From the NCBI RefSeq assembly GCF_001570585.1, contig NZ_BBXF01000005.1, positions 124,001 to 188,000 on the forward strand: a stretch of 64,000 bases of DNA. Direction: 5' to 3'. The translations under genes were made by a program, and so were the position numbers. Origin of the DNA: Herbidospora daliensis (lineage in GTDB: Bacteria > Actinomycetota > Actinomycetes > Streptosporangiales > Streptosporangiaceae). Positions 971 through 17,556 of this stretch are shown one piece after another (positions within the stretch are counted from its first letter, which is position 1; every line of letters starts with the position of its first letter). The notes under the pieces were generated by a model that was given only the letters and a program-made list of their open reading frames with translations, did no database searches and had not been told where the DNA came from.

Positions 971-1819
971 ATGCTTTCCTTCGTGATGTCCCTCGCCCTG
1001 CTCTCCGGCGCGGTCACCGCGCCGCCGACCTCGGCGGTCGCGGATCTGCGCGCGCTGGAGACCTCGTTCAAAGGCCGCATCGGCCTGTACGCCATCGACA
1101 CCGCCACCGGCAAGACGATCGCCTACCGCTCGGGCGAGCGTTTCCCGCTGGCCTCGACCTTCAAGGCGGTGCTCGCGGCGGCCGTGCTGGACAAGAAGCC
1201 CGACATCCTCGGCAAGCGGATCTCGATCAAGAAGAAGGACCTGGTGGACTACTCGCCGGAGGTCGAGAAGCACGTCGGGTCGTCCATGACCGTGGCCGCG
1301 CTCGCCCGCGCGGCCGTCACCAAGAGCGACAACGCCGCCGCGAACCTGCTGCTCAAGCAGGTCGGCGGCCCGAAGGGCCTGACCAGGTACTTCCGCGGCC
1401 TGGGCGACCACGTGTCGCGGCTCGACCGCACCGAGCCCGGCCTGAACCGCTGGAGCCCCAGGGAGCTCCGCGACACCACCACCCCGGCCGCCGTCGGCCG
1501 CGACCTGAGGGACCTCGCCGCGGGTGACGCCCTCGACGCGGGCGACCGCCGGATCTTCACCGGCTGGCTGGTCGCCAACGAGACCGGCGACAAGCGCATC
1601 CGGGCCGGGCTGCCCAAGAGCTGGCGGGTCGGCGACAAGACCGGGACGGGCGGCACCTACGGGACCGCCAACGACATCGCGATCATCTGGCCGAAGGGGT
1701 CGAAGAAGCCGATCATCATGGCGATCTACACCAACCGCACCGACAGGAACGCCGCCGCCGACGACTCCGTCGTCGCCAGGACCGCCACGATCGCGGCACG
1801 TGGCCTCGGGAAACTCTGA
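971..1819 (+). CDS. bla: Class A beta-lactamase
   Basis: A 282-residue serine beta-lactamase that hydrolyses beta-lactams outside the membrane. A short hydrophobic N-terminus (about residues 1-22) looks like a secretion signal. All class A motifs are present: S62-T-F-K65 nucleophile motif, S119-D-N121, omega-loop E155-P-G-L-N159 with the deacylating Glu, and K223-T-G225. The length is normal. The stop codon overlaps the start of the next gene, a class A PBP, as TGATG, so the two are probably co-translated. Divergent lysR and the palindrome between them suggest inducible expression. No strong ribosome site is seen, so the start is the first plausible ATG before the signal peptide. Confidence 0.92.
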   Translation: MLSFVMSLALLSGAVTAPPTSAVADLRALETSFKGRIGLYAIDTATGKTIAYRSGERFPLASTFKAVLAAAVLDKKPDILGKRISIKKKDLVDYSPEVEKHVGSSMTVAALARAAVTKSDNAAANLLLKQVGGPKGLTRYFRGLGDHVSRLDRTEPGLNRWSPRELRDTTTPAAVGRDLRDLAAGDALDAGDRRIFTGWLVANETGDKRIRAGLPKSWRVGDKTGTGGTYGTANDIAIIWPKGSKKPIIMAIYTNRTDRNAAADDSVVARTATIAARGLGKL

Positions 1820-4146
1820 TGCGCCTACGTAACATGCCCGGCCTGCTCGTCGCCGGGATCGCGGCCGGGGTGATCACCGCCGGGCTCGCGCTCCCGGCCG
1901 GGATCGCCCTCAGCGGCGTGGCCGAGACCATCGACCTCAGCCCGATGGAGCTGGCCGAACCGCCACTGGCCGAGAAGACCACGCTCCTGGACGCCGACGG
2001 CAGACGCATCGCCCAGTTCTACGACCAGTTCCGCGAGAACGTCACCGTCGACAAGGTAGCGCCCATCATGCGCACCGCGATCGTGGCGATCGAGGACGAC
2101 CGCTTCTACCAGCACGGCGCCATCGACCTCGAAGGCACCATCCGCGCCCTGGCCGCCAACCTCAGCGCCGGCGGCGTCGCCCAGGGCGGCTCCAGCATCA
2201 CCCAGCAGTACGTCAAGCAGGTCCTGCTCAACAGCGCCACCACCGAGGAGCAGAAGGAGGCCGCGCTCGCGCCCAGCTACGTCCGCAAGCTGAACGAGCT
2301 GCGCTACGCGCTGTCGGTCGAGGAGAAGTACAGCAAGGACCAGATCCTCGAGAAGTACCTGAACATCGCCTACTTCGGCGCGGGCGCGCACGGCATCCAG
2401 GCCGCGGCCAAACGCTTCTTCGGCGTCACGGCGGCCAAGCTGAACCTCGCCCAGTCGGCGACGCTGGCGGCGGCGGTCCGGCTGCCGACGTCCACCGACC
2501 CCGAGGGCGGCAAGAAGAACCGCGACGCGCTGGTCGCCCGCCGCAACGTCGTGCTCGACCGGATGGCCGAACTCGGCAAGATCACCCCCGCCGAGGCGGC
2601 CAAGGCGAAGAAGAGCAAGCTCGGCTACAAGGGCGTGCCGATCCCCGGCGGCTGCGAGACCAGCGACTACCGCTACTTCTGCCAGTACGTCGCCGCGGAG
2701 GTGCTGGCCGACAAACGCTTCGGCAAGACCCGGGCAGATCGCGAGCGCACCCTCAAGCAGGGCGGCATGACGATCCGCACCACCCTCAACCCGAAGATGC
2801 AGGACGCCGCCCAGAAGGGCATCGAGGCGTTCGTCGGACCCAAGGACGGCCCGGTGGCCGCCCAGGCGCTCGTCGAGCCCGGCAGCGGCGCGATCCGCGC
2901 GATGGCCGCCAGCCGCGACAACCTCGACTACAACGTGGTCGCCGACCGCGCCCACGGCGGGCTCGGCGGCGTCCAGGCGGGGTCGACGTTCAAGACGTTC
3001 ACGCTGCTCACCGCGCTCGGCCAGGGCATGCGGCTGAGCGACGGGTTCACCGTCGGCGGGTCGTACACCGCGCCGTCGCCCTCGGCGTTCACCGACTGCG
3101 CCGGCAACGCCGTCGGCGACCCGAGCCACGCGGTCACCAACGACGAGGGCTCGCCCGGCTACACCACCCTCCAGACCGGGACGTGGGGTTCGGTCAACAC
3201 GTTCTTCCTGACGCTGGAGGAGCGCGTCGGCCTGTGCGAGACGGTCAAGACGGCCAAGTCGCTCGGCATCAAGCGCGCCGACGGCAAGAAGCTCCAGGAG
3301 TACGAGACCTTCACGCTCGGCATCAACGAGATGGACCCGGTCACCGTCGCCAACGCCTACGCGGCGATCGGCGCGCGCGGCAAGTACTGCAAGCCCATGG
3401 CCATCACCGCGATCACCGACCGCAACGGCGAGAAGACCTCGTTCACGCCGGAGTGCAACCAGGCGATCGAGGCCGAGGTGGCCGACGCCGCCGCCGACAT
3501 CCTGTCGGGCGTCTTCACCAAGGGCACCATGCGCAGCGTGGGCGGCATCGGCCGTCCGGCGGCCGGCAAGACCGGCACCAACGACAACCAGTCGAGCGCC
3601 TGGTTCGCCGGCTTCACCCCCGACCTGGCCGGCGCGGTCAGTCTCGCCGACCCGCGCGGCGCGATCACCCACAAGCTGAACAACGTGACGATCGGCGGCC
3701 GCTGGTACGGCTCGGTGTTCGGCGCGACCGTCCCGGGCCCGATCTGGAAGGCGACCATGACGGCCGCCCTGGAGGGGATCCCGGCGACGCCGTTCACGCC
3801 GATCGACCAGGCGCGGTTCGGCGTACAGGAACGCTTCGACCCGTGGGCGGACGACCCGTACGGCGAGCAGCCGTGGGACGACTACGGCCAGCGCCCGCCG
3901 GACGGCTGGGACCAGACCGACCCCGGCACCACCGACCCGAGCGACGACCGCCCGGGGCGCGGGGACCAGGGAGACCAGGATCAGGGGAACCAGGGTCCGG
4001 GCAACCAGGGTCCGGGCAACCAGGACCCGGGGCAGAACGACCCCGGACCGGGTGGCGGCGGGCCCGATGACCAGGGCCCGAACAATCCGGGCGGACCGAA
4101 CCAGGGCGACCAGCCGGACACGTCGCCAGGGAACGGCCGGGGCTGA
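1819..4146 (+). CDS. Class A penicillin-binding protein (transglycosylase/transpeptidase)
   Basis: A 775-residue bifunctional peptidoglycan synthase. An N-terminal membrane anchor (about residues 8-33) is followed by the GT51 transglycosylase with an EDDRFYQHGAIDLEG motif (from E92), GGSSITQQ (about 123-130) and a KYLNIAYFGAGAHGIQAAA block. The transpeptidase follows: S389-T-F-K392, S458-V-N460 and K584-T-G586. The last roughly 90 residues are a Pro/Gly/Asp/Gln-rich, low-complexity tail with repeated NQGPG-like units, probably wall-spanning. Its start overlaps the beta-lactamase stop. The coupling of a lactamase and a PBP suggests a wall-protection unit in which the PBP could be a beta-lactam-tolerant synthase; that is inference. 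Confidence 0.93.
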   Translation: MRLRNMPGLLVAGIAAGVITAGLALPAGIALSGVAETIDLSPMELAEPPLAEKTTLLDADGRRIAQFYDQFRENVTVDKVAPIMRTAIVAIEDDRFYQHGAIDLEGTIRALAANLSAGGVAQGGSSITQQYVKQVLLNSATTEEQKEAALAPSYVRKLNELRYALSVEEKYSKDQILEKYLNIAYFGAGAHGIQAAAKRFFGVTAAKLNLAQSATLAAAVRLPTSTDPEGGKKNRDALVARRNVVLDRMAELGKITPAEAAKAKKSKLGYKGVPIPGGCETSDYRYFCQYVAAEVLADKRFGKTRADRERTLKQGGMTIRTTLNPKMQDAAQKGIEAFVGPKDGPVAAQALVEPGSGAIRAMAASRDNLDYNVVADRAHGGLGGVQAGSTFKTFTLLTALGQGMRLSDGFTVGGSYTAPSPSAFTDCAGNAVGDPSHAVTNDEGSPGYTTLQTGTWGSVNTFFLTLEERVGLCETVKTAKSLGIKRADGKKLQEYETFTLGINEMDPVTVANAYAAIGARGKYCKPMAITAITDRNGEKTSFTPECNQAIEAEVADAAADILSGVFTKGTMRSVGGIGRPAAGKTGTNDNQSSAWFAGFTPDLAGAVSLADPRGAITHKLNNVTIGGRWYGSVFGATVPGPIWKATMTAALEGIPATPFTPIDQARFGVQERFDPWADDPYGEQPWDDYGQRPPDGWDQTDPGTTDPSDDRPGRGDQGDQDQGNQGPGNQGPGNQDPGQNDPGPGGGGPDDQGPNNPGGPNQGDQPDTSPGNGRG

Positions 4147-4575: not shown

Positions 4576-5157
4576 ATGAGAATCGTGGTATTCGGAGCGG
4601 GCGGCCGAGCGGGCCGCCGGATCGTGACCGAGGCGCTCGCCCGCGGGCACGAGGTGACCGGCGTCTCCCACCGTCCGGGCGACTGGACGGTCGGCGACGT
4701 CACCGACCCGTCTACGGTGGCCGCCCTGGTCGGCGGGCACGACGCGGTCGTGATGGCGGCCGGCAGCCCTGAACCGGGCTTCTTCCCCCGGGCGGCCTCG
4801 GCTCTGGCCGGAACGGGGGTGACCCGGCTGGTGGCGATCGGCATCGGCACGACGCTGGAGACGCCGGAGGGCGTGCCGCTGTACGAGACGCCCGGCTTCC
4901 CCGAGGACGCGCGGGCCTTCACGATGGGGCACGTCGAGGAGCTCGGCGTGCTGCGGGAGTCGGCGCTCGACTGGGCGGTGCTCGCCCCGCCGCCCGTCTT
5001 CCTGGACGACGAGCCGCCGACCGGGCGGCACCGGGTCGGCGGCCTCACCGCGCCCGGCGACACGACGTTCGGCTACGCCGACCTGGCGGCGGCGGTGGTC
5101 GACGAGGTCGAACGGCCCACCGTGCACCGGGAACTGGCCGCCGTCACGGCCGTCTAG
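4576..5157 (+). CDS. NAD(P)-binding Rossmann protein (atypical SDR / NmrA-like)
   Basis: A 193-residue protein beginning MRIVVFGAGGRAGRRIVTEA, the glycine-rich nucleotide-binding turn of atypical short-chain dehydrogenases. ATG at 4576 is chosen because the Rossmann strand begins immediately; an upstream TTG would add only unstructured residues. Family members act as quinone or flavin-type reductases or redox sensors, and the divergent HxlR gene fits that. The TAG stop overlaps the TAG stop of the convergent megasynthase gene within one CTAG palindrome (5154-5157). Confidence 0.85.
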   Translation: MRIVVFGAGGRAGRRIVTEALARGHEVTGVSHRPGDWTVGDVTDPSTVAALVGGHDAVVMAAGSPEPGFFPRAASALAGTGVTRLVAIGIGTTLETPEGVPLYETPGFPEDARAFTMGHVEELGVLRESALDWAVLAPPPVFLDDEPPTGRHRVGGLTAPGDTTFGYADLAAAVVDEVERPTVHRELAAVTAV

Positions 5158-6104
5158 ACCCATTCGCCCGCGAGGTGGAGCGGGGCGGCCTCCACTCCCG
5201 CTTCGGTCATCGCGCGCCGGCAGGCCAGGGCCGTGCCGGTGTCGACCAGGCCGTGGACGGGGTTCAGCCCCGGGATGAGGGACTCCAGGCGGCAGGAGGC
5301 GATGGTGCCGGGCAACCAGGGGGCGGGGACGTCCACTGTCAGCCGTCGTTCGATGCCCGGCATCGACAGCAGGCCGCCGCCGACGACGGTGACGTCGCGG
5401 CGGGCGCGGGCCTTCTGGACGTCGAAGCAGTGGGGGAAGGAGTCGTCGACGAGGATCGTGCCGGGCCGCAGCCGGTCGACGTCGATGACGAGGTCGTGGC
5501 CGCTGACGGCGGCGACGATCAGGTCGGCTTCGTAGACCTGGTCTGCGTCGCAGCTCTCGGCGTCTGGGTGGAGGTTTTCAAGCGGGGCCGCGTCGTCGCG
5601 CAGCAGCAGCCGTCTCGGGCGGCCGGCCACGGTCAGCATCAAGCCGAGGGCCGACCGGCCGATCGACCCGAGCCCGACGAAGGCGACGGTCAGGTCGCCG
5701 ATCGGCCGTCCCGCCAGCGCCTTCTGAACGGTCAGGACCACCGAGACGGCCGTGGCGGCGTGACCGGTGGTGACGGGCACACCGGTCCGCCGCGCGACGT
5801 CGAAGCCGTAGCCGGTCAGCGAGGGGATCATCCCGGCGAGCGAGACGGTCCGCGCGCCCAGGGCGGCAGCGTGCTCGACGGCGTCGGCGGTCCGGGCCGC
5901 CAGGTCTGGCGTGTGGGTGAGCTCGTCGGCGAACAACGGCAGACAGACGAAGCCCGACCGCCCGAGCGGGGTGTCGAGTTCCTCGGCCAGCCGGGGGCGG
6001 CCGTGGGGGAAGAGCAGGGCGCGCACGTCTTCCCTGGTCATGGTGGCATTCGGGGCGAGCGCCCGAACATGCTCGAAGGGGGGCAGATAGCCGACCAGGG
6101 CGGC
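5154..6104 (-). other. C-terminal domain resembling cyanobacterial acyl-ACP reductase
   Basis: The last 316 residues of the megasynthase are neither a thioesterase nor the usual SDR-type terminal reductase. They follow the layout of cyanobacterial long-chain acyl-ACP reductase (AAR). The domain opens with VGYLPPFEHVRALAP, then has TTGHAATAV and a Rossmann turn VAFVGLGSIGRS near residue 3399. Next come ADLIVAAVSG, TILVDDSFPHCFDVQKAR and VVGGGLLSMPG. Finally ASCRLES places Cys3525 where AAR has its acyl-accepting cysteine. AAR uses NADPH to reduce acyl-thioesters to aldehydes, so a reductive release step is the natural inference. The alignment is from memory of the family pattern, so residue equivalence needs a profile search. 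Confidence 0.75.
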
Positions 6105-9100
6105 GTCCAGGGCCGCGGTCTCGGCACGCGGGGTCGGGATGGCTTCTTCGGCGCCAGGGCGCACCTGGCCGATCGATGCCAGGTCGCTGGCCGGCGTTGT
6201 GCTCCCGGCGTGCGAGAGTACTGGGCTCACAAGTGGCCGGCCGTCGGCGGGGGGTGGCAGTTCGGCCCTCAGGAGGCGTTCGAAACGGTCCGCTTCGGCC
6301 ACGGCGGTTCGCAGCACCAGTCGGAGGTCGCCCTCCGGCGTGGGCCGTACCGACAAGAAGGTCTGCGCGCCCACGGGGGCGATCTCCCCGTCGAGGTCCC
6401 AGGTCAGCCGGAGGCTGCGGCCCTCCAGCGGCCCCAAGGCCGTGAAATCGAGGTAGGTGAAGAAGAACTGGGCCGCTCTGATGTCCCCGGTGTTCGCCGA
6501 GCGGGCGGCCGTCACCTCCTCGGCCACCGCCCGCAGGCTTCCGGCGGCGGGCCGGACCGGCACCGCGTGCGCATACGGGCCGAACACCAAATGGGCGTCG
6601 GGCGGCGCGTCGTCGCGGCCGGACACGGCGACGCCGAGCATCAGGTCGTCGTGGCCGGTGAACGCCGTGAGCGCCCGGTGGTAGGCGGCCAGCACCGCGA
6701 CGAACAACGTCGTGCCCGCCTCGGCGGCGGCCCGCCGCGACTCCGTCGCGTCGACGGTGAAGGCCGTCGTGCGGTCCGGTCCCGGCGGAACCGCGGGCTT
6801 GAGGTACGCCTCCCGCTCATCCCCGGGCGGGCGCAGCCGGGCCACGTGGTCGCGGAAGGTGCTGCGCGGCGCGGGCGACTCGATCCCGTCGTAGGCGGCG
6901 AGCAGTTCGCGCCCCAGCAGCGCCGCGCTGTAGCCGTCGCCGATCAGATGGTGCGCGTGCACGACCAGCACGTGCTCCTCCGGATTCAAGGTCACGAGCC
7001 GGAGCCGGAGCAGCGGCCACGCCCACGGCTCGAAGACCCGGCCCCGTTCGGCGGCGATCGAGGCGGCCGGATCGGCGGCCTCTTCGAAGATCACGGGCAG
7101 GCGCAGGCTGCCGGGCAGCTCCTGCTGCACGTCGCCGGGGAACAGCGTGCGCAACATCCCGTGCCGCGCCACGCAGGCGTCGACCGCGTGCTGGAACCGC
7201 TCGCGGTCGACCCGCCCGTGCACGCGCAGCGTCGCCAGCCACGCCTGGTCCGACAGCAGGAACCCGCGTTGCGCGGGCGTCAGCGGGAACGGGCCGTCGG
7301 CGGCCGCGGGCACGAACGGCGCGGGGTCGGCCTCGTCGATCGCCCGGGACAGCGCTTCGAGGGTGCCGTGCTCGTAGACGACCGTCGGGCGCGGCAGGGT
7401 GCCGATGTGCTCGGCGAGCTGGGCGAACACGCGCAGGATCAGGATCGAGTCGCCGCCGAGGGCGAAGAAGTCGTCCTCCCGCGACACGCGCGGCACCTCC
7501 AGCAGGGAGCGCCACACCTCCGCGACCAGTTCCTCGGTCGGGGTCGCGGGCGGCGTGCCGTCGAGCTCGCGGCGATCGATCTTGCCCGTGGGGGTCTGCG
7601 GGAGCGCGGTCACGATCTCGATCCGGGCCGGGATCATGTACGAGGGCAGCGTCGCCCCCAGGTGCCGGCGCAGCGCGACGGGATCGGGGTCGCGGCCGGG
7701 CCGGGGCTCGACGAAGGCGGTCAGCCGTTCCCCGGTCAGCACCACGGCGGCCCGCGCGACCTCCGGATGCGTGTGGAACGCCGCCTCGACCTCCCCGGGC
7801 TCCACGCGGTGGCCGCGTACCTTGACCTGCGCGTCGAGCCGCCCGACGAAGACCAGGTCGCCATCGGCGTCGCGCCGCACCCGGTCGCCGCTGCGGTACC
7901 ACCGCACGCCGTCGCGTTCGACGAACGCCGTGCCGGGGTCGTCAAGGTAACCGGGCGTGAGCCCGGCTCCGGCGATGAGGAGTTCGCCCGAATCGTCCAC
8001 CTCGACGAACGTGCCCGCGATCGGCCGGCCGATCGGGATCGTGGTCACGTCGTCGGCGGGCCGTTCGTCGATGACGTGGCAGGTGGTGTTGACGGTCGAC
8101 TCGGTCGGGCCGTAGAGGTTGGCGATGCGGGCGCCGGGGCCGTAGAGGTCGAACCAGCGGCGCACGTGCTCGGGCGGCAGCGCCTCGCCGCCGACGTGGA
8201 TCCAGCGCAGCCGGTGCTCGACGGGCCCTTCGTCCAGCAGCCGCGCCCACAGGCTCGGCACCGAACTCCACACCGTGACGTCACGCAGCCGCCCCGCCAG
8301 CAGCGCGGGGTCGCGCACCTCCTCCCGCGTGAACGTCACCACGGTCGCGCCGACCAGCAGCGGAGCCAGCAGCTGCCGCACCGAGGCGTCGAAGCAGATC
8401 GACGCCGTCTGGGCCAGCCGGTCGCCCGCGTGGTAGCCGAACGTCGCCAGCGCCCAGTCGAGGTAGTTCTCCACCGACCGCCATGTGATGGGCACGCCCT
8501 TGGGCCGCCCGGTCGAACCGGAGGTGAAGATGACGTAGGCGGTCGCGTCGGCCGAGACGTCCGGAGCGTCATAGGACCCCTCGCCCGACACGTCGGTGAC
8601 GACCGTCGTCACCCCGCAGCGGGCGAGCTGGTCGCGGCGGCGCGCCTCCGGATGGGCGGCGTCGAGCGGCACCCAGCCCGCCCCCGCGCGGACGATGCCG
8701 ACCAGCCCGACGACGGTGTCGATCCCGGGTTCGGTCATCAACCCGATCAGGTCCCCGGCCCCGCGCAGCCGGTTGGCCAGCGCGGCCGACCGCCGGTCGA
8801 GCTCGCCGTAGGTCAGCCGGGCCGTCCCGGTGTCGACCGCGACCGCGTCGGGGGTGGCGCGGAACTGCGCCCGCAACCGCCCCGCCAGCCCCGGACTCTC
8901 CGCCACGGACAGCTCGGCCAGATGCTCGGCGGCCAGCCGGCCGACGGTCGCCCGGCGGAACGACCGCGACGGGAAGTTCCACGAGAACCGCAGCTCACCG
9001 CCCGACTCCCAGCACAACAGGCTCAACCGGGTCGCCGCCGAGGCGGTCCCGGCGGCGGTCGCGACGGCGTCCACCGGACAACCCGGATCGGTCGTGGCGG

Positions 9101-12100
9101 GAAAACGGGCGAAACTGAACGAGGCGGGGCTCGCCGTGCGCGGTCCGCCCGAAGCGGGCAGCAACCGGGCCAGATCGACGGAGGTCGGGGAGGCGTGGCG
9201 TTCGGCGTCCCGCCAGAGATCCCGCAACCGGGCCGCCAGTTCGGGCAGCGACTCGCCCGGCCGCACGTCGGCCACCAGCGGCAAGGTGTCGGCCAGCGGC
9301 CCGACGAGCCGCTCGACCCCCGCGAGGCGGATCTCGCGCCGGGCCCTGGCGACGTTCACCGCGACGCCGCCGCCCCCGCTCCAACGGGCGAGGCAGCGCA
9401 CATAAGCGGCCAGCAGCAGATGGAACAGCGAGACGCCGTGCGCCGCCGCCATGGCTTTCAGCGCCGCCGACCGTTCCGGCGTGAGGGCGACCTGAAGGGC
9501 GTCGAGCGGCGGCCCGTCCGGGTCGCCGTCGTAGGGAAGGTGCAGGTCGGGGGCATTTTCCAGAACCCCGGTCCAGTACGCCAGATCGCCCGCGCCCGCC
9601 GGTCCGGAGGCGGCGGCGTATTCGGCGAAGGTCGTCGGCAGCGGCGGCAGGACCGGGGTGGTGCCGTGTGACAGGGCGGTGTAGACGGCCCAGAGCTCGT
9701 CACCGAGCACGTTCAGGCTGAAGCCGTCGGCGGCGAGGTGGCTGACGACGATGACCAGGTGGGTCTCGGCGGGGGTCCGGGCGACCACGGCGCGCAGCGG
9801 ACCCTCGCGGGTGAGGTCGAAGGGGCGGTTGCGGAGGTCGCTTTCGAGGGCGTCGAGGTCGTCGGTGTCGCGCACCTCGAAGAAGAGCCGTCCCGCCGGT
9901 TCGGCCGACTGGGTGCCGTCGGCGTCGACCCGCAACCGCAACATCGGGTGCCGGTCGACGAGGAACTCCAGCGCCGCCCGCAGCCGGGCGGTGTCGAGGG
10001 GGCCGGTGATGGTCTGGCGGACATACCCATACGCCGAAATTTCGGGATAGAGGCGCTGCTGCGTCTGGAAGGCGACCTGCGTCGGCGTGAGCGGGAACGC
10101 CCCGCCGCCGTCGAGATGGGCCGACAACTCGCGCAGGGTGCGGAACTCGAAGAACAAGGTGACCGGCAGCGAACGGCCGAGCTCCTTCTCCAGACGTTTG
10201 ACCAGGTCGACAGCGGTGAGCGAGTCAAGCCCGAGGCTGAGGAACGACTCGTCGTCCCCGAGGTCGTCCCGCTTGAGGGCGCTCCCGACCAGCCTCCTGA
10301 TGACCGTCCGCACCTCACCGGAGGGCGGCCCAGAAGCCGGTTCCGGTACGGCGGCCAGATCGGCCACCACCACCTGCGCGCCCCCCGACCCGATCGCCGC
10401 GCGCAGCGCGGCCAACGCCGCCGAAGGCTCAAGCGCCCCCTGGGTGACCCCGGCACGAGCGGCCAGACCGACCTCCGCGAAAGCGGCGAAGTTCACCGAG
10501 ATCCACGGCCCTTGCTCGGCCCGGCACAACGCGTCGAGGTAGGCGTTGGCAGCGGCGTAGCCACCGATGCCCCCGGCCAGCCCAGGCAGCACCGAGGACA
10601 CCGACGAGAACGCGACACAAACGACCGGCGAGAGCCGATGCCGACGCAGCCCTTCGGCGAGCAGATGCCCGCCCCGGGTCTTGGCCGCCATACCCGCCAC
10701 GACCTGCTCGGCCGACCTGCTCCGCAACGCACCGGGACTCACCTCCCCGGCGGCGTGGAACACCCCGTCGAGCCGGGGCAACCGCGCGAGCAACGCCTCG
10801 ACATCGGCCTCCCGCGACACGTCGGCGGCGTGATACTCGACGGTCGCCCCCCGGGAGCGCAGGTCGGCAAGCAGCCCGGCAGGCGGCCGGGCCGACCGCC
10901 CGGCCAACACGATCGTGGGCCGCCCCCGGTCGGCAAGATCCCGCGCGAGCACGGCCCCGACCCCGCCCGCCCCGCCGGTGATCAGATAGACCCCATCGGG
11001 TGGCAGCTCCCGCCGGGCCGCGACGACGGCTTCCAGTTCCCGCTCCCACCGCCTGCCCCCGCGCCAGGCGATGACCCCGTAATCTCGGGCCGCGACCTCG
11101 TGCTCGACTGCGGCCACTCGCTGTTCGACGGGCTCGCGGGAGGTCAGGTCGGCGATCTCGTGCTCGACTGCGGCCACTCGCTGTTCGACGGGCTCGCGGG
11201 AGGTCAGGTCGGCGACCTCGTGCTCGACCGCAGGCACTCGCTGTTCGACGGGCTTGCGGGAGGTCAGGTCGGCGACCTCGTGCTCGACCGCTGCCATCCG
11301 CTGCTCCACGGGCTCTCGGGAGGCCAGGTCGGCGACTCTGATCTCGGTGCCCGTCTCCTGGGCGAGGGCCGCCGCAAGACCTTCGAGCACCGCCTGCTCG
11401 GGCCGGTCGACATGCACGTCCTGGGTGACGATGAGCAGCCGCTTCACGTCGAGCTTCAGCAGCGCCGACGTCAGGTCCCGGTGCATCGCGTCGAGCGCGT
11501 CGGCCGACTCCGCTCGCCGGGGCGCTCCCGCCACGAGGATCGTGACGTCGCCGCTGGTCAGGACGGTCGATCTGGGAGCGTCGAGCGCCTCCGCCAGCCC
11601 GCCGACCGTCACCCGCCGACCGTCGACCGGTCGTTCGTGCCAGACCAGTCGGTGCAGCAGCCGCGACGACGGCCAGTGGCGGCGGCGTTCGAACGGATAC
11701 GTCGGCACCGCCACCCGGGTCCGGCCCCGGTCCATGGCCGTGCGGTCGATCGGGAGGCCGCGTTGCCAGAGTGCGCCGACCGTTTCCAGCAGGGCCCGCG
11801 CGCCGCCCTCGTGTCCGGCCGCCATCGTCGTCACCGGTGTGGCCGCCGCATCCGACACGGCTCGCACCGCGCCGCTGAGTGCAGGGGAAGGGCCGAGCTC
11901 CAGGAAGGTGTTGTAGCCCTCGGCGATCAGCCGGTCGATCGTGTCGGCGAAGCGCACCGGGCGGGCGGCGTGGTCGCGCAGGTAGGCCGGGTCGAACGAC
12001 GGGTTCCATTCGGTGGTGACCGTGCTGATCAAGGGGATTTCCGGCGGACTGACGGTGAGTTTGGCCGCCGCCTCGGTCAGCGGGGCAAGTGCCGGTTCCA

Positions 12101-15100
12101 TCAGCGGCGAGTGGAAGGCCCGCGCCACGTCGAGACGGCGGCCGCCCAACGGCTCGACCGCCGCCACGGAACCGGCTACCACGATCCGGCCAGGGGCGTT
12201 GACCGCTGCCACCGTCACCCCCGGCGGCAGGTCGGTGTCATCTGGGACGACCGCCATCGCCCCAGGAGGGCAGAGGTCGTGCATCAGGCGGCCGCGTTCG
12301 GCCGCGAACGTGACCGCGTCGGCGAGGCTGAGCCGGCCGGACACGCAGGCGGCGGCGAGTTCGCCCACGCTGTGGCCCGCCACGGCGTCCGGGGTCACGC
12401 CCCAGGCGCGCAGTTGGCGGGCGAGCGCGATTCCGTACACGACCAGGAGGGGCTGGGCCACGTCGGTGCGGACGATCTCGGCGGCGGGATCGGCGCACCA
12501 GTCCTTGAGGGTGCGTCCGCCGACCGGGCCCACCAGGTCGGATGCCTCGTCGACGACCTGGCGGAACACGGGGGCGTGCCGGTAGAGGTCGGGGCCGGAG
12601 CCCTGGGCGCCCTGGCCGGGGAGCAGCAGAACCAGGCGGGGGCGCGGGCCCGCCACCCGGGCTTCGGCGGTCGCCAGGCGGGCGGGCAGGTCTCCGTCGG
12701 CGACGACCGCCACTCGGTGGGGGCCGTCGTCGCGGGCCTGCGCGACCGATGCGCAGACGTCGGCCTCGTGGCCGGGGAGGAAGGCGGCCAGGTCGGCGGC
12801 CGCCCGGCGCAGCGCGTCGGCGCTCCATGCCGACAGCGTCAGAAGGGTGAGTCCCTCGTGGACGGTGGGTTCGATGGAAGAAGCGGGGGGTTCGGACAGG
12901 ATGGCGTGGGCGTTGGTGCCGCCGAAGCCGAAGGCGTTGATCCCGGCGGTGCGGGGTGCCGGCCACTCGACCGGCTCCGAGGGGACGGTGAAGCCGTCGA
13001 GGCCGTCGGCGGGCGGGGTCGCGTGCAGCGACGGCGGCACTCTCCGGTGGTGCAGCGCCAGCACGACCTTGACCAGGCTCGGCATCGCCGCCGCGTTGAG
13101 CAGGTGCCCCACGTTGGTCTTGACCGAGCCGAGCAGGCGGGTGCCGGTGGGGAAGGCGTGTCGCAGCGACCGCAGTTCGATCGGGTCGCCGACCGGGGTG
13201 CCCGTCCCGTGGGCCTCGATGTACGTGACCTCGGCCGGGTCCACGCCCGCCTCCGCGTAGGCGCGGGTGATGACCTCGCGCTGGGTGAGCGGGTTGGGGG
13301 CGAGCAGGCTCAGCGACCGGCCGTCGTTGTTGACGGCGGTGCCCCTGACGACGGCCAGGACGGGGTCGCCGGCCCGTTCGGCGTCGTCGAGCCGGGCCAG
13401 CACCAGCGCCGCGCCGCCCTCGCCCGGGACGAAGCCGTCGGCCGCCGCGCCGAACGCGTGGCAGCGGCCCGACGGGGAGAGCGCCCGCGTCTTCCCGAGC
13501 GCGCGGTAGCCGGCGGGGGTGAGGGTGAGGTTGACGCCCGCCACCACCGCGAGGTCGCATTCGCCCTGCTGGAGGCTGCGGCGGGCCAGGTGGAGGGCGA
13601 CCAGCGCCGACGAGCAGGCGGTGTCGACGGCCAGCGCCGGGCCCGTCAGGTCGAGGGTGTGGGCGACCCTCGCGGCGAGCAGATTGGGCAGGTTGCCGGT
13701 CAGCGCCTCGGCCGGGAGGCCCGCCGGGCCGTGGGCCGCTTCCAGGATCTCCCGGTAGCCGCTCTCCCCGGCCGCGGCGAACACGCCGATGCGGCGGCCG
13801 TGGCGGCGCGGGCCCGCGTAGCCCGCGCGTTCGAGCGCTTCGTGGGCGAGTTCGAGCAGCAGGCGGGCCTGGGGGTCGGTCGCGGCGGCCTCGTCGTCGG
13901 ACAGGCCGAAGAAGCGGGCGTCGAACAGGGCCGGGTCGCCGAGGAAGCCGCCGTGGCCCGGGTGGTCGAAGCGGGTGATCGGGGTGACGGCGTCGTAGCC
14001 GGCTTCCAGCCGCTCCCAGAACCGCTCGGGGGTGTCGGCTCCGGGGAACCGGCAGGCCATCCCGGTGATCGCGACAGGCGATCCGCCGGCCCTCCCCATG
14101 AGCGGCCGGGCCGCGGCGGGCGGGGTCAGCAGGTGCGCCGCCAGGGCGGCGACCGTGTCGTGGTCGCGGACGTCGGAGGGCCGCAGCGTCACCCCGAAGC
14201 GGTCTTCGACGGCGGCCAGCACCTGCATCGCCGTGAGCGACGAACCGCCCAGCGCGGCGAACCGGTCGTGCGGCCCCACCTCGGCGACGCCGAGCACGTC
14301 GGCCCAGATCGCCGTGACGGCCGCCTCGACGTCACTGCGCGAGCGCGGGGCCGGGGTGAACTCCCCGGCCTCGAACCGGGCCCGCAGCACCGACCGCCGC
14401 AACTTTCCGCTGGTCGTGCGGGTGAACGCGGTCGACGGCACCGCGACCACCCGGACGTCGTCGTGCCCGCACGCCTCGGCGACCCGCCGCCGGACCTCGC
14501 CCACGACCTCGGCCGGCGCGGGGGCCCGCACGAACACCACGACCCGCTCGCCATCGAGGCCCGTCGTGCCGACGACCGCCGCCGGTCCCGTCGCCGCCCC
14601 GGCCGCGACCTCCTCCAGGTCGGCGGCGTGGAAGGTGGCGCCGTTGACGAACACGACGTCCTTGGCGCGGCCGGTCACGCACAACCGGCCTTCGTGCAGG
14701 AAGCCCAGGTCGCCGGTGTCGAGCCAGTCGCCGAACCGCGCGCCGCCGTGGTAGCCGCGGGCGACCTGCGGGCCCCGTACCTGGATGGGCCCGACCGGGT
14801 CGTCTCCGGCGACGCGCACCTCGCAGCCCGGCACGGGCACGCCGACGTCCATCAGCTCGACCGCGTGCGGGCCGGGGGTGGTGAGCTCGACCCGGCCCTC
14901 GGCCAGCGCCCGCCGGTCGAGCACCAGCGGTTCGGCCGTGGTGCCCGGCGGCGGCACGGTCACCGCGAGCGTCGCCTCGGCCAGGCCGTAGACGGGCTGC
15001 GGGACGTGGGGCGGCAAGCCGGTCTTGGCCAGGAACGCGCGCCAGACGCGCGGCGAGATCGGTTCGGCGCCGACCAGCATCAGCCGCACGCTCGACAGGT

Positions 15101-15866
15101 CGAGCCGGGCGATCACGTCGTCGGGCACCCGCCGCTCGACCAGCGCCAGCGCGAAGTTCGCCGCCGTCAGCACGGTCGCCCGGTGGCGCGCGGCCGTCTC
15201 CAGCCACAGGGCCGGGCGCTTGGCGAAGGCCAGCGGGCCCAGCTTGACCTGTTTGATGCGGGCCGCCAGCGGCGCGAGGTGGGTGCCGATGAGGCCCATG
15301 TCGTGGAAGTAGGGCATCCAGCTGACCGAGACGTCGTCGGCGGTGATCGCGGCGGCGGCCCGGATCTGGGCCAGGTTGGCCTCGACGGCGGCGTGGGTGA
15401 GCTCGACGCCCTTCGGGTCTCCGGTGCTGCCGGAGGAGAACTGGAGGAACGCCACGTCGTGCGGTGACCGTACCGGCAGATCCAAGGCCATTTCCCCGCG
15501 CAGCAGCGCGGCGGGGGAGAGCACCCGCGCCTCCGGGACCGGAGGCTCGCCGGCGACCATCGGCGGGCGGCCGAGGAGCTCCCACACCGGCCGCACCCGG
15601 CGCGGGTCGGGGGCCAGCGGGACCGGCACCAGCCCGGCGGCGACCAGCCCCCAGAAGAGCGGCTGGAACTCCTCGCTGCGCTCGGCGACCAGCGGGATCG
15701 GGGTGCCCGGCGCGAGGCCCTCGCGCAGCAGCGCGCCCGCGACCCGCAGCGCCTCGTCGCGGAGTTCCGCGTGGGTGACGACCCGTTCGCCGCCGTCGCC
15801 CCGCACGTGGACGACGACCTGGCCGGGCGCCTCGCCGGCCGCCCCCAGCAGTACGTCAAGCAGCAT
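5154..15866 (-). CDS. Hybrid FAAL-PKS-NRPS megasynthase with C-terminal AAR-like reductase
   Basis: A 3570-residue assembly line. The ATG at 15866 is preceded by a G-rich ribosome site and opens the FAAL domain; reading further upstream would only add sequence antisense to other genes. Domain order, in approximate residues: fatty acyl-AMP ligase 1-490 (FSSGSTGDPKGVELTH near 145, WMPYFHDMGLIG, YGLAEATLAV); carrier protein with Ser543; ketosynthase 595-1010 (DTACSSA, Cys751); acyltransferase 1080-1370 (GHSVG Ser1166; AFH ending at His1252, favouring malonyl-CoA); ketoreductase 1380-1840 (GGAGGVG near 1630, Tyr1770-AAAN; no DH or ER); carrier Ser1882; condensation 1920-2345 (SHLAADG); adenylation 2350-2770; peptidyl carrier Ser2807; second condensation 2860-3210 (HHLIGDG); AAR-like domain 3255-3570. 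Predicted product: an amino acid N-acylated by a beta-hydroxy fatty acid and released as an aldehyde or by a further condensation. The chemistry is inferred; the domains are seen. Confidence 0.93.
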   Translation of the reverse strand: MLLDVLLGAAGEAPGQVVVHVRGDGGERVVTHAELRDEALRVAGALLREGLAPGTPIPLVAERSEEFQPLFWGLVAAGLVPVPLAPDPRRVRPVWELLGRPPMVAGEPPVPEARVLSPAALLRGEMALDLPVRSPHDVAFLQFSSGSTGDPKGVELTHAAVEANLAQIRAAAAITADDVSVSWMPYFHDMGLIGTHLAPLAARIKQVKLGPLAFAKRPALWLETAARHRATVLTAANFALALVERRVPDDVIARLDLSSVRLMLVGAEPISPRVWRAFLAKTGLPPHVPQPVYGLAEATLAVTVPPPGTTAEPLVLDRRALAEGRVELTTPGPHAVELMDVGVPVPGCEVRVAGDDPVGPIQVRGPQVARGYHGGARFGDWLDTGDLGFLHEGRLCVTGRAKDVVFVNGATFHAADLEEVAAGAATGPAAVVGTTGLDGERVVVFVRAPAPAEVVGEVRRRVAEACGHDDVRVVAVPSTAFTRTTSGKLRRSVLRARFEAGEFTPAPRSRSDVEAAVTAIWADVLGVAEVGPHDRFAALGGSSLTAMQVLAAVEDRFGVTLRPSDVRDHDTVAALAAHLLTPPAAARPLMGRAGGSPVAITGMACRFPGADTPERFWERLEAGYDAVTPITRFDHPGHGGFLGDPALFDARFFGLSDDEAAATDPQARLLLELAHEALERAGYAGPRRHGRRIGVFAAAGESGYREILEAAHGPAGLPAEALTGNLPNLLAARVAHTLDLTGPALAVDTACSSALVALHLARRSLQQGECDLAVVAGVNLTLTPAGYRALGKTRALSPSGRCHAFGAAADGFVPGEGGAALVLARLDDAERAGDPVLAVVRGTAVNNDGRSLSLLAPNPLTQREVITRAYAEAGVDPAEVTYIEAHGTGTPVGDPIELRSLRHAFPTGTRLLGSVKTNVGHLLNAAAMPSLVKVVLALHHRRVPPSLHATPPADGLDGFTVPSEPVEWPAPRTAGINAFGFGGTNAHAILSEPPASSIEPTVHEGLTLLTLSAWSADALRRAAADLAAFLPGHEADVCASVAQARDDGPHRVAVVADGDLPARLATAEARVAGPRPRLVLLLPGQGAQGSGPDLYRHAPVFRQVVDEASDLVGPVGGRTLKDWCADPAAEIVRTDVAQPLLVVYGIALARQLRAWGVTPDAVAGHSVGELAAACVSGRLSLADAVTFAAERGRLMHDLCPPGAMAVVPDDTDLPPGVTVAAVNAPGRIVVAGSVAAVEPLGGRRLDVARAFHSPLMEPALAPLTEAAAKLTVSPPEIPLISTVTTEWNPSFDPAYLRDHAARPVRFADTIDRLIAEGYNTFLELGPSPALSGAVRAVSDAAATPVTTMAAGHEGGARALLETVGALWQRGLPIDRTAMDRGRTRVAVPTYPFERRRHWPSSRLLHRLVWHERPVDGRRVTVGGLAEALDAPRSTVLTSGDVTILVAGAPRRAESADALDAMHRDLTSALLKLDVKRLLIVTQDVHVDRPEQAVLEGLAAALAQETGTEIRVADLASREPVEQRMAAVEHEVADLTSRKPVEQRVPAVEHEVADLTSREPVEQRVAAVEHEIADLTSREPVEQRVAAVEHEVAARDYGVIAWRGGRRWERELEAVVAARRELPPDGVYLITGGAGGVGAVLARDLADRGRPTIVLAGRSARPPAGLLADLRSRGATVEYHAADVSREADVEALLARLPRLDGVFHAAGEVSPGALRSRSAEQVVAGMAAKTRGGHLLAEGLRRHRLSPVVCVAFSSVSSVLPGLAGGIGGYAAANAYLDALCRAEQGPWISVNFAAFAEVGLAARAGVTQGALEPSAALAALRAAIGSGGAQVVVADLAAVPEPASGPPSGEVRTVIRRLVGSALKRDDLGDDESFLSLGLDSLTAVDLVKRLEKELGRSLPVTLFFEFRTLRELSAHLDGGGAFPLTPTQVAFQTQQRLYPEISAYGYVRQTITGPLDTARLRAALEFLVDRHPMLRLRVDADGTQSAEPAGRLFFEVRDTDDLDALESDLRNRPFDLTREGPLRAVVARTPAETHLVIVVSHLAADGFSLNVLGDELWAVYTALSHGTTPVLPPLPTTFAEYAAASGPAGAGDLAYWTGVLENAPDLHLPYDGDPDGPPLDALQVALTPERSAALKAMAAAHGVSLFHLLLAAYVRCLARWSGGGGVAVNVARARREIRLAGVERLVGPLADTLPLVADVRPGESLPELAARLRDLWRDAERHASPTSVDLARLLPASGGPRTASPASFSFARFPATTDPGCPVDAVATAAGTASAATRLSLLCWESGGELRFSWNFPSRSFRRATVGRLAAEHLAELSVAESPGLAGRLRAQFRATPDAVAVDTGTARLTYGELDRRSAALANRLRGAGDLIGLMTEPGIDTVVGLVGIVRAGAGWVPLDAAHPEARRRDQLARCGVTTVVTDVSGEGSYDAPDVSADATAYVIFTSGSTGRPKGVPITWRSVENYLDWALATFGYHAGDRLAQTASICFDASVRQLLAPLLVGATVVTFTREEVRDPALLAGRLRDVTVWSSVPSLWARLLDEGPVEHRLRWIHVGGEALPPEHVRRWFDLYGPGARIANLYGPTESTVNTTCHVIDERPADDVTTIPIGRPIAGTFVEVDDSGELLIAGAGLTPGYLDDPGTAFVERDGVRWYRSGDRVRRDADGDLVFVGRLDAQVKVRGHRVEPGEVEAAFHTHPEVARAAVVLTGERLTAFVEPRPGRDPDPVALRRHLGATLPSYMIPARIEIVTALPQTPTGKIDRRELDGTPPATPTEELVAEVWRSLLEVPRVSREDDFFALGGDSILILRVFAQLAEHIGTLPRPTVVYEHGTLEALSRAIDEADPAPFVPAAADGPFPLTPAQRGFLLSDQAWLATLRVHGRVDRERFQHAVDACVARHGMLRTLFPGDVQQELPGSLRLPVIFEEAADPAASIAAERGRVFEPWAWPLLRLRLVTLNPEEHVLVVHAHHLIGDGYSAALLGRELLAAYDGIESPAPRSTFRDHVARLRPPGDEREAYLKPAVPPGPDRTTAFTVDATESRRAAAEAGTTLFVAVLAAYHRALTAFTGHDDLMLGVAVSGRDDAPPDAHLVFGPYAHAVPVRPAAGSLRAVAEEVTAARSANTGDIRAAQFFFTYLDFTALGPLEGRSLRLTWDLDGEIAPVGAQTFLSVRPTPEGDLRLVLRTAVAEADRFERLLRAELPPPADGRPLVSPVLSHAGSTTPASDLASIGQVRPGAEEAIPTPRAETAALDAALVGYLPPFEHVRALAPNATMTREDVRALLFPHGRPRLAEELDTPLGRSGFVCLPLFADELTHTPDLAARTADAVEHAAALGARTVSLAGMIPSLTGYGFDVARRTGVPVTTGHAATAVSVVLTVQKALAGRPIGDLTVAFVGLGSIGRSALGLMLTVAGRPRRLLLRDDAAPLENLHPDAESCDADQVYEADLIVAAVSGHDLVIDVDRLRPGTILVDDSFPHCFDVQKARARRDVTVVGGGLLSMPGIERRLTVDVPAPWLPGTIASCRLESLIPGLNPVHGLVDTGTALACRRAMTEAGVEAAPLHLAGEWV
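11092..11340. repeat. 60-bp in-frame tandem repeat (four copies) inside the megasynthase KR region
   Basis: Four consecutive 60-bp units lie at 11101, 11161, 11221 and 11281, with a short partial unit before them. Units 1 and 2 differ at one base; units 3 and 4 diverge progressively. Each encodes a 20-residue repeat of the type VADLTSREPVEQRVAAVEHE (residues about 1510-1590), between the structural and catalytic parts of the ketoreductase. Within each unit, hydrophobic residues spaced 4-3-4-3 form an amphipathic helix broken by one proline. The near-identity of two units indicates recent slippage or unequal crossing-over, and copy number may vary between strains. Confidence 0.95.
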
Positions 15867-15921: not shown

Positions 15922-15953
15922 TTGCGTGTTGCGCAAATAGTGCGTGACACGCA
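15922..15953. promoter_or_regulatory. Twin palindromic operators between the megasynthase and the hydrolase gene
   Basis: Two adjacent palindromes fill the 90-bp divergent intergenic region. The first, at 15922-15936, has TTGCG and CGCAA arms around 5 bases. The second, at 15941-15953, is TGCGTG-A-CACGCA. They share the half-site TGCGTG and together form a larger inverted repeat (TTGCGTGT at 15922 and ACACGCAA ending at 15954). A TetR gene lies about 1 kb away in the same cluster, so these are its likely binding sites, controlling both directions. Confidence 0.65.
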
Positions 15954-15956
15954 AAC

Positions 15957-16961
15957 ATGTGGGACATGAAGACCCGAGGCATCAACTACGACACCGGCTT
16001 CGCCGACCTCCACGCCCGCAGGGCCGGGCACAGCACTCACGAACCCTTCGACCCCGCCGCGGTCGCCCGCGACATGCGGGTCATCCGCGACGACCTGCGC
16101 TGCACGGCGGTCCGGATCACCGGGCAGTACGCCGACCGGCTGACAATCGCCGCCACCGCCGCGGCCGAGGCGGGGCTGGAGGTCTGGTTGTCCCCGTTCA
16201 CCTGCGACGTCACCACCGGCGAGCTGCTCGCGGTGCTCGCCGACTGCGCCGCGCACGCCGAGCGGCTGCGGCAGGGCGGCGCCGAGGTGGTCATGGTCAC
16301 CGGCTCGGAGATCGGCCTGATGACCGACGGCTTCCTGCCGGGGGAGACGCTGCGCGAGCGGGTGCCCCGGCTGGGTGAGGGCGTCGCGCTCGTGCCGGAC
16401 AAGGTCAACGCCTTCCTCGCCGAGGCGGTCGCGGTGGTGCGCGAGCGGTTCGGGGGCCGCGTCACCTACTCGTCGTTGCCGTTCGAGAAGGTCGACTGGA
16501 CGATCTTCGACGTCGTCGCCACCGACGCGGGCTACCGGTCGGCGGCCACCGCCGCGACCTACCGCGAGTCGGTCCGGGCGCTGGTCGCGCAGGCGAGGGA
16601 GCTGGGCAAGCCCTTCTCGGTCAACGAGTTCGGCTGCGTGACCTACCGGGGCGCGGCCGACGCGGGGGAGCGCGGCGACGCCGTGGTCGAGTGGAGCGAG
16701 CGCGGCCCGGCCGCCCGGCTGACGCGGGAGGTCGTCAGGGACGAGGAGGAGCAGGCCCGCTACCTGCGCGAGGTGCTGGCGATCCTCGACGACGAAGGGG
16801 TCGACGCGGCGTTCTGGTACACCTTCGCGCGGTGGGACCTGCCGGGCGCCTTCGACGTCGCGAGCCCGGGGGTGGTGAAGGTGCTCGACGGCGGGGCCAG
16901 GTGGGAGCCGAAGGCGTCCTTCGCCGCCCTCGCCGAGGTCTACGGGCGCATGGACGCGTGA
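15957..16961 (+). CDS. TIM-barrel hydrolase-like protein of the family often labelled 'abortive infection protein'
   Basis: A 334-residue cytosolic protein with no signal peptide. The pattern is that of a glycoside-hydrolase-like (beta/alpha)8 barrel: KTRGINYDTGF at the start, AVRITGQYADRL, LEVWLSPFTCD, VVMVTGSEIGLM with a candidate acid, PFSVNEFGC with the second candidate acid Glu near 223, and AAFWYTFARWDLPG near the end. Actinobacterial relatives are often annotated as abortive infection proteins without evidence, and I do not endorse that role. It is divergent from the megasynthase through a double operator and followed 13 bp later by tetR. A role in tailoring or removing a sugar or precursor is possible. 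A second ATG at 15966 is an equally good start. Confidence 0.75.
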   Translation: MWDMKTRGINYDTGFADLHARRAGHSTHEPFDPAAVARDMRVIRDDLRCTAVRITGQYADRLTIAATAAAEAGLEVWLSPFTCDVTTGELLAVLADCAAHAERLRQGGAEVVMVTGSEIGLMTDGFLPGETLRERVPRLGEGVALVPDKVNAFLAEAVAVVRERFGGRVTYSSLPFEKVDWTIFDVVATDAGYRSAATAATYRESVRALVAQARELGKPFSVNEFGCVTYRGAADAGERGDAVVEWSERGPAARLTREVVRDEEEQARYLREVLAILDDEGVDAAFWYTFARWDLPGAFDVASPGVVKVLDGGARWEPKASFAALAEVYGRMDA

Positions 16962-16974
16962 ATATGCTGCCTGC

Positions 16975-17556
16975 ATGACCGACCTGAGGGCCCGCAACCG
17001 GCAGGCCACCCGCGAGGCGATCACCGCCGCGGCGCTGCGCCTGGCCGTCGAACAGGGCCCCAGCGGGCTGGCCCTCGTGCGGGTCAACGACATCGCCTCG
17101 GCGGCCGGGGTGTCGCCCCGGACGTACAACAACTACTTCTCCAGCAGGGAAGAGGCCATCTGCGGCGGGCAGGCCGACCAGTCGCGGCGCGCGGGCGACG
17201 CGCTGCGCGCCCGGCCCGCCGGCGAGCCGCTCGACGTGGCGATCACCGAGGCGATGGTCGGGCTGTTCACCGACCCCGAGCCCGACCGGGCCGGGCTGCG
17301 GATGATCATGCTGACCCCCGAGCTGGAGGGCGAGGCGCTGCGCGCCTTCACCGTGGGGGAGAGCTCGCTCGCCGAGGCGATCGCCGAGCGGACCGGGGAG
17401 AGCGGCCTGCGTCCCGAGGTCACGGCGGCGGCGGTGGTCGCCGCGATCAGGGTCGCCGGGCGGCACTGGCTGACCCCGGCCGCCAACCGGCCGTTCGCCG
17501 ACGACATCCGGCGGGCGCTGAGCTGTGTCTTCTCACCTGATCAAACCTCGCGATGA
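16975..17556 (+). CDS. TetR-family transcriptional regulator
   Basis: A 193-residue protein with an N-terminal TetR helix-turn-helix: RNRQATREAITAAALRLAVE, then VNDIASAAGVSPRTYNNYFS and an aromatic start to helix 4. The C-terminal ligand domain is all-helical and has no recognisable specificity. It lies 13 bp after the TIM-barrel gene and is probably co-transcribed with it. The twin palindromes at 15922-15953 are the likely operator, which would make it the local switch for the megasynthase locus. Confidence 0.9.
   Translation: MTDLRARNRQATREAITAAALRLAVEQGPSGLALVRVNDIASAAGVSPRTYNNYFSSREEAICGGQADQSRRAGDALRARPAGEPLDVAITEAMVGLFTDPEPDRAGLRMIMLTPELEGEALRAFTVGESSLAEAIAERTGESGLRPEVTAAAVVAAIRVAGRHWLTPAANRPFADDIRRALSCVFSPDQTSR

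Follow-up and report, generated by a model that had tools for sequence, protein, structure and literature searches.

Can one gene both build and release a finished lipo-aminoacyl product, and if so, by what chemistry would the chain leave the enzyme? The question is raised by a 64,000-nucleotide stretch of the Herbidospora daliensis genome (contig NZ_BBXF01000005.1, positions 124,001 to 188,000; hereafter the window), in which a single very large gene, the megasynthase, had been predicted to encode a FAAL-ACP-KS-AT-KR-ACP-C-A-PCP-C-AAR assembly line, with its own TetR regulator and operators and with a beta-hydroxyacyl amino acid, or an aldehyde or derivative of it, as product. Domain order, motifs, conservation and the class of the terminal domain, all read from sequence, together with the steps that we infer from them, lead us to favor, by a modest measure, a self-contained lipo-aminoacyl assembly line. 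The architecture of the original prediction stands, the aldehyde product and the private regulator were its weak points, and the system itself is real, well conserved, under-described and commoner than could be known from the window.

Architecture, conservation and distribution of the megasynthase

The interval 5154-15866 was placed correctly and its gene lies on the minus strand, where translation yields one intact frame of 3570 aa from ATG 15866 to a stop at 5154 without internal stops (frame 1 of the plus strand has two), with GGGGG 6 nt upstream of the start codon. The corresponding start position is ATG in four of the six other Herbidospora loci; in the remaining two it is GTG, and an ATG lies one codon further upstream. 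The concern that sequencing error had broken the frame can be set aside: it is open in 6/6 other Herbidospora loci, at 77-88% identity, and whole-gene pairwise ratios of nonsynonymous to synonymous substitution (dN/dS) against three of these are 0.21, 0.23 and 0.26. By domain, the same three comparisons give 0.08-0.58, below 1 throughout and highest in the short PCP, and selection therefore seems to keep every domain, the second condensation domain (C2) and the end domain included.

Domain annotation with Pfam, NCBIfam and family HMMs recovers the predicted order as FAAL-ACP-KS-AT-KR-ACP-C-A-PCP-C-TAD, where TAD is the reductase-fold end domain. The family HMMs, with which domains were ordered in the relatives, derive from 14 aligned members, window included, and the window's own domain slices define them. 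Pfam matched four AMP-binding, three PP-binding and three Condensation stretches, both the N and C parts of ketoacyl-synt, an acyltransferase and a KR; DH, ER and thioesterase families were absent from these matches, and the last ~350 aa had no Pfam family above cut-off (best 15.1 bits versus 27). The A-domain model TIGR01733 exceeds its cut-off, and the first domain appears to belong to the FAAL class, its nearest solved chains including the FAALs 3pbk, FadD32 and FadD28 and NCBIfam FAAL models scoring below their cut-offs. Counted over the relatives without the window (one genome, that of L029 and L110, enters twice), the KS cysteine is present in 46/46, KS KxNxGH in 45/46, AT GHS in 45/45, KR YxxxN in 46/46, the ACP1 motif in 44/45, and those of ACP2, PCP and C1 ([HS]HxxxDG) in all 47, 48 and 47, respectively. 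The first His of this C1 motif is Ser in 7/7 Herbidospora and His in the 41 other relatives tested. The 60-bp repeat in the KR linker has four copies only in the window, a motif scan showing one copy in two Herbidospora relatives.

The predicted beta-hydroxyacyl-amino-acid logic is borne out insofar as the KR motifs are present, DH and ER are unmatched and the AT would be malonyl-type by the AFH rule, relatives having [RHC]AFHS in 41/45 cases and GFHS in the other four. KR stereotype is read from LDD and W motifs, neither of which was seen by eye in the KR. Over 49 family rows, window included and one genome counted twice, the A-domain pocket reads DARSHGLINK in 37, DARSHGLVNK in nine, DARSHGLINA in one and DARSQGLINK in one, the last from a Sericytochromatia metagenome-assembled genome (MAG; L028), one further row being gapped over its first four residues. 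Domains that activate acidic amino acids have Arg at pocket position 239, and the pocket thus suggests that the A domain loads such a residue. The A domain adjoining the TAD in one cyanobacterial locus (L147) has the pocket DLTKIGHVGK, which we presume to be Asp-like.

A search with the end domain across 198 genomes, its own included, returned 14 with a match: all seven Herbidospora (among the relatives H. sakaeratensis, G002; H. yilanensis, G001; H. mongoliensis, G006; and H. cretacea, G003), one other genus of the family, three genomes of a genus taken to be Streptomyces (one of its genomes, G293, and the named Streptomyces sp. ADI96-02 match at the same place with the same score) and three weak ones. 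A TAD match was found in 47 of the 295 Streptomyces genomes sampled; the full region was examined for 38 of these, eight others being left out and one (L145) being a stand-alone frame. The complete order in one frame is present in at least 37/295, one of them (L114) with its FAAL cut by the contig start, which would amount to a compact, complete one-gene pathway in roughly every eighth Streptomyces species sampled. The search for the same architecture across actinobacterial genomes thus gave 44 loci besides the window that have every domain (37 in Streptomyces, six in Herbidospora and one in the remaining genus of the family), which removes the supposed uniqueness of the domain order; L027 and L029 are truncated by locus or contig ends. 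The MAG protein reads KS-KR-ACP-C-A-PCP-C-TAD, without FAAL or AT, neither of which was found in seven nearby frames scanned, and 3/292 genomes of its phylum, the MAG included, have a match. Of 396 genomes of the host's own phylum, 34 have an end-domain match, 30 of which, outside Herbidospora and Streptomyces, are frames of 359-458 aa, i.e., stand-alone reductases. A plasmid copy in S. fungicidicus, an 11.8-kb gene of putatively the same architecture, is annotated only as a nonribosomal peptide synthetase (NRPS)/type I polyketide synthase (PKS), and a plasmid search with the A domain matched 239 records, with generic names or none among the 15 matches listed. Neither a characterized cluster with the same domain order nor a product name was found in the literature searched, a scope outside which MIBiG falls. 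The assembly line is widespread and apparently uncharacterized, although its kind, FAAL-PKS-NRPS with TAD-class release, is known.

A simple gene-calling script was applied to eight actinobacterial loci: the window, a second Herbidospora locus, one locus from the other genus of the family and five Streptomyces loci, two of which lack an upstream flank. Among the genes called, the megasynthase alone is common to all eight, scattered gene pairs (ABC transporters and the like) are common to some, and a gene cluster with neighbors shared by all loci is thereby ruled out. Because dN/dS is below 1 in every domain and no other called gene is common to the eight loci, the megasynthase looks like a one-gene pathway. 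It is important to note that the script discarded overlapping frames and overlooked some genes, including the TetR and GH-like genes of the window, which were therefore tested separately.

The release domain and the step before it

An atypical end had been predicted for the protein, in the form of an AAR; the fold holds, whereas the AAR identity, and with it the aldehyde, is weakened. In a single-sequence search the best solved relatives of the end domain were 9e4x/9e4s (E 1.5e-30), followed by 4ppm (6e-12), which we take to be PigE, and a family profile (hmmsearch) gave 8.2e-61 for 9e4x, 3.5e-12 for 4ppm and 6e-6 for AAR. PDB titles of 9e4s and kin read 'TAD from Carmabin Biosynthetic Pathway', in complexes with NAD or NADH, and one describes Cys2238 disulfide-linked to dephospho-CoA. 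A structure model of the window's TAD alone (mean pLDDT 81.4, pTM 0.83), on which we relied in preference to an earlier C2-TAD model (mean pLDDT 64.4, poor for C2), matched TAD in Foldseek with TM-scores (TMq) of 0.86-0.88 versus 0.74-0.78 for AAR. In a 29-row tree, 13 TAD-like domains, two cyanobacterial NRPS ends and two stand-alone Streptomyces domains among them, separate from 16 stand-alone actinobacterial reductases at 100/100. The motifs follow the same division: 11 TAD rows have GxGS[IV]G, TTGH and DDSxP[HY]C, none of which occurs in the 16 reductases, where GA[TS]GSIG, TTGN (also in the 6jzz alignment) and DVA.P stand instead. Cys3525 is present in 53/53 TAD rows, and the same Cys is found in TADs and reductases. 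By profile, tree, motifs and modeled fold, the end domain thus groups with the carmabin-TAD class, with an AAR fold. An R domain of the PF07993 type was rejected as the release domain, none of the 10 PF07993 matches in the genome lying at the window locus.

The domain that precedes it, C2, is the odd part of the architecture. It stands between PCP and TAD in 48/48 family proteins reaching that far, with HHxxxDG in all 48 (48/49 stretches, one C2 being split in two), and scores 90.8 bits against a cut-off of 30.6 with Pfam Condensation, as expected of a member of the C-domain family. In a profile search with C2, ordinary C domains come out on top (PvdL 3.9e-58, BacC, McyB, TycC), with AmbE lower (1.4e-27) and presumed E domains lower still, near 1e-17 (2xhg 1.2e-17). 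Here 2xhg is assumed to be an E domain and the PvdL chain to be E2-C3-A3, with its best stretch at 559-874.

We propose that FAAL loads a fatty acid on ACP1, that KS-AT would extend the chain once with malonyl-CoA and that KR would leave a 3-hydroxyacyl chain on ACP2. C1 would then couple this chain to an acidic, Asp/Glu-like amino acid that A has placed on PCP, C2 would perform a further step of undefined nature on the PCP-bound product, and TAD would take the acyl group on Cys3525, beside bound NAD(H), before releasing it. The product would be an N-(3-hydroxyacyl) acidic amino acid with the released carboxyl amidated or reduced. Since the end domain is closer to TAD than to AAR or 4ppm, an amide product is as probable as an aldehyde or more so. 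A passage of PMC10949194 describes the equivalent domain of HcaD/VatR as believed to offload by terminal amidation and as possibly related to that of carmabin A; this proposal and the TAD-class evidence make a terminal amide our leading guess, to which we would give an about even chance, an aldehyde or some other route of release being less likely. 'TAD' itself would stand for terminal amidation domain, and would be the HcaD/VatR domain.

Several observations count against this proposal or parts of it. The same passage of PMC10949194 calls amidation hypothesized and its mechanism unstudied, and no PDB title spells out the abbreviation TAD. The NAD(H) site and the conserved Cys would also suit an aldehyde-forming reduction, the AAR model TIGR04058 matches 7/10 family members weakly (best 2.3e-9), and the tree carries long-branch and composition warnings. 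The acidic residue is a prediction from specificity codes, and in a second cyanobacterial locus (L148) the A domain near the TAD reads, by elimination, DAFFLGVTFK, which is not acidic-looking, so that an acidic residue cannot be deduced from the presence of a TAD. In the cyanobacterial loci L147 and L148 the TAD follows PCP directly, with no C2 before it; the megasynthase does not have such a PCP-TAD module, C2 lying in between, and its release step may therefore differ. The strict KR Ser pattern is found in only 38/46 relatives, where variants occur, and one Streptomyces copy (L121) is split over several frames. L148 has its C-A and PCP-TAD in separate frames.

The foremost rival reading is reductive release: the thioester would be reduced by the AAR-fold domain, giving an N-acyl amino aldehyde that may cyclize or be reduced further. 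The fold itself, the NAD(H)-type glycine loop and a Cys equivalent to that of AAR all speak for it, as does the NCBIfam PigE model, which matches 10/10 members (63 bits, below its cut-off of 850); moreover, an excerpt of PMC9594044 classes the TamH domain as an AAR that would liberate aldehydes, and PMC8341465 describes PigE as reducing a thioester. We nevertheless consider this outcome unlikely, as every measure used places the end domain nearer to TAD, TTGH, DDSxPHCF and GxGSxG stand in place of the reductase motifs, and TIGR04058 gives 19.7 bits against a cut-off of 449.7, which places the domain outside the canonical AARs. An aminotransferase fused as in PigE or TamH had no Pfam match in the megasynthase.

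The invariant place of C2 before the TAD, its intact HHxxxDG motif and its dN/dS of 0.16-0.28 in the three Herbidospora comparisons, like the lack of a C2 match before the two cyanobacterial TADs, would also be accounted for if C2 were the true releasing domain, condensing the chain with a free small amine or cyclizing it, with the TAD modifying the product or being structural. The TAD motifs are equally conserved, however, and the C2 profile, which ranks ordinary C domains above AmbE and the E domains, points to no particular subtype; we regard this option as quite improbable. A position after PCP is also that of an E domain, by which a D-amino acid would be formed before release; with HHxxxDG as in C domains and E domains scoring so far below C stretches, epimerization by C2 is extremely unlikely. 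Finally, the Arg at pocket position 239 (R2497) is shared with ACV synthetase, McyE and McyB module 2, which load acidic amino acids through their side-chain carboxyl, and it is very unlikely, though of some consequence, that the line holds N-(3-hydroxyacyl)-Asp by its beta-carboxyl. If it did, amidation would give an N-acyl-asparagine and reduction an N-acyl-aspartate semialdehyde, one step from an N-(3-hydroxyacyl)-homoserine lactone, and one gene in Streptomyces would suffice to make signal-like acyl amino acids by an assembly line.

Palindromes, regulator and neighboring genes

Two palindromes lie inside the 90-bp gap between the megasynthase and a divergent GH113-like gene (Table 1), and with one mismatch allowed TGCGTGNCACGCA has a single occurrence in the window, where 0.37 would be expected. 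A looser, two-mismatch pattern is found at three more places in the window and once in each of three Streptomyces loci, and nowhere in G015 or ADI96-02. The pair precedes the megasynthase in 5/7 Herbidospora. In H. cretacea and H. mongoliensis, however, the megasynthase promoter is without it and the pair closely precedes the GH113-like gene, about 2.2 kb and 5.3 kb from the megasynthase, respectively, with a frame that reads like an alpha/beta hydrolase (putative) intervening in H. cretacea. These displaced pairs, beside GH113-like genes away from the megasynthase, are at 17035-17067 of L035 and 19716-19747 of L034. Because of the positions in these two species, the pair is seen to track the GH-like gene and not clearly the megasynthase, and its adjoining location is ruled out as evidence of megasynthase regulation. 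The window and three relatives have the TetR gene directly beside the GH-like gene; in G005 and H. cretacea more than 1 kb separates the two, and in H. mongoliensis the TetR gene falls outside the examined stretch. Neither the TetR nor the GH-like protein had a tblastn match (E 1e-15) in the non-Herbidospora stretches tested. The claim that the pathway has its own TetR and operators is thus unsupported.

The flanks are largely syntenic within Herbidospora. Eight nearby genes of the window were scanned and comprise two ABC ATPases, an FAA hydrolase, an erythromycin-esterase-like protein, a LacI, an MFS, a VWA and a MoxR-like protein. At 971-1819 lies a beta-lactamase-like gene (Pfam), followed directly at 1819-4146 by a large gene that by eye is penicillin-binding-protein-like.

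Table 1. Features of the megasynthase locus, in window coordinates
Feature	Position	Strand	Remarks
Megasynthase gene	5154..15866	minus	3570 aa; residue n starts at 15866-3(n-1)
FAAL (fatty acyl-AMP ligase), residues 1-508	14343..15866	minus	Putative; NCBIfam PRK09192 324 bits, below cut-off 600
ACP1	14127..14330	minus	GGSS motif
KS	12858..14087	minus	DTACSS / EAHGTGT / KTNVGH
AT	11817..12644	minus	GHSVG and RAFHS
60-bp tandem repeat x4.1, KR linker	11092..11336		Codes four copies of about 20 aa, in frame
KR	10482..11099	minus	Ser and YxxxN present
ACP2	10107..10325	minus	LGLDS
C1 condensation domain	8931..10103	minus	First His of HHxxxDG is Ser
A domain	7557..8873	minus	Specificity residues DARSHGLVNK
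PCP	7329..7529	minus	LGGDS
C2, second condensation-family domain, PCP to TAD	6252..7295	minus	Intact HHLIGDG
TAD/AAR-fold release domain, residues 3254-3570	5157..6107	minus	GLGSIG, TTGH, DDSFPHCF, Cys3480, Cys3525
Cys3525 codon	5292..5294	minus	Aligns with Cys common to TADs and AARs
Paired palindromes (TTGCGTGTTGCGCA; GTGCGTGACACGCA)	15922..15953		Putative operator, tracks GH113-like gene
GH113-like protein, divergent neighbor	15957..16961	+	24.5 bits, below Pfam cut-off of 27
TetR-family regulator	16975..17556	+	MftR-type C-terminal domain

Comparison with known systems

TAD-like proteins also occur outside megasynthases. In Pantoea stewartii pCN101 (L152, 9719-11008) a stand-alone TAD-like protein annotated as hypothetical, a possible trans-acting TAD, has a luciferase-like monooxygenase gene on one side and two adenylation-domain (NRPS) genes on the other, and short TAD/AAR-like Streptomyces proteins are found in L145, in L146 and on a plasmid of sp. 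NBC_00470 (L153, 7875-9071), the last near ACP and KS genes. With the megasynthase, release domains of the TAD class extend to actinobacteria, and the C-TAD arrangement found here is absent from both cyanobacterial loci examined. A one-gene system in tractable Streptomyces would open the proposed terminal amidation by this domain to direct study.

The closest systems are the carmabin TAD (PDB 9e4s, 9e4u, 9e4x, 9e50, 9e56) and the terminal 'amidotransferase' domain of vatiamide/hectoramide. With these the end domain shares the AAR fold, the NAD(H)-type site, the conserved Cys, DDSxPHCF and the location at an NRPS C-terminus; it differs in the C domain between PCP and TAD, in terminating one complete FAAL-PKS-NRPS chain, in its mainly actinobacterial hosts and in sequence, at about 28% identity. 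AAR (TIGR04058, 6jzu) and the AAR-aminotransferase fusions of the PigE/TamH type have the same fold and catalytic Cys, whereas the megasynthase has different motifs, scores far below the curated cut-offs and no aminotransferase partner. The NRPS R domain (PF07993) is likewise a C-terminal, NAD(P)H-using release domain, of a family that the megasynthase does not match. FAAL-initiated PKS-NRPS lipopeptide pathways, as a group, share the FAAL-to-ACP loading followed by PKS/NRPS extension; they usually comprise several genes plus tailoring, whereas here a single gene, with no neighbors common to all loci, carries the whole line.

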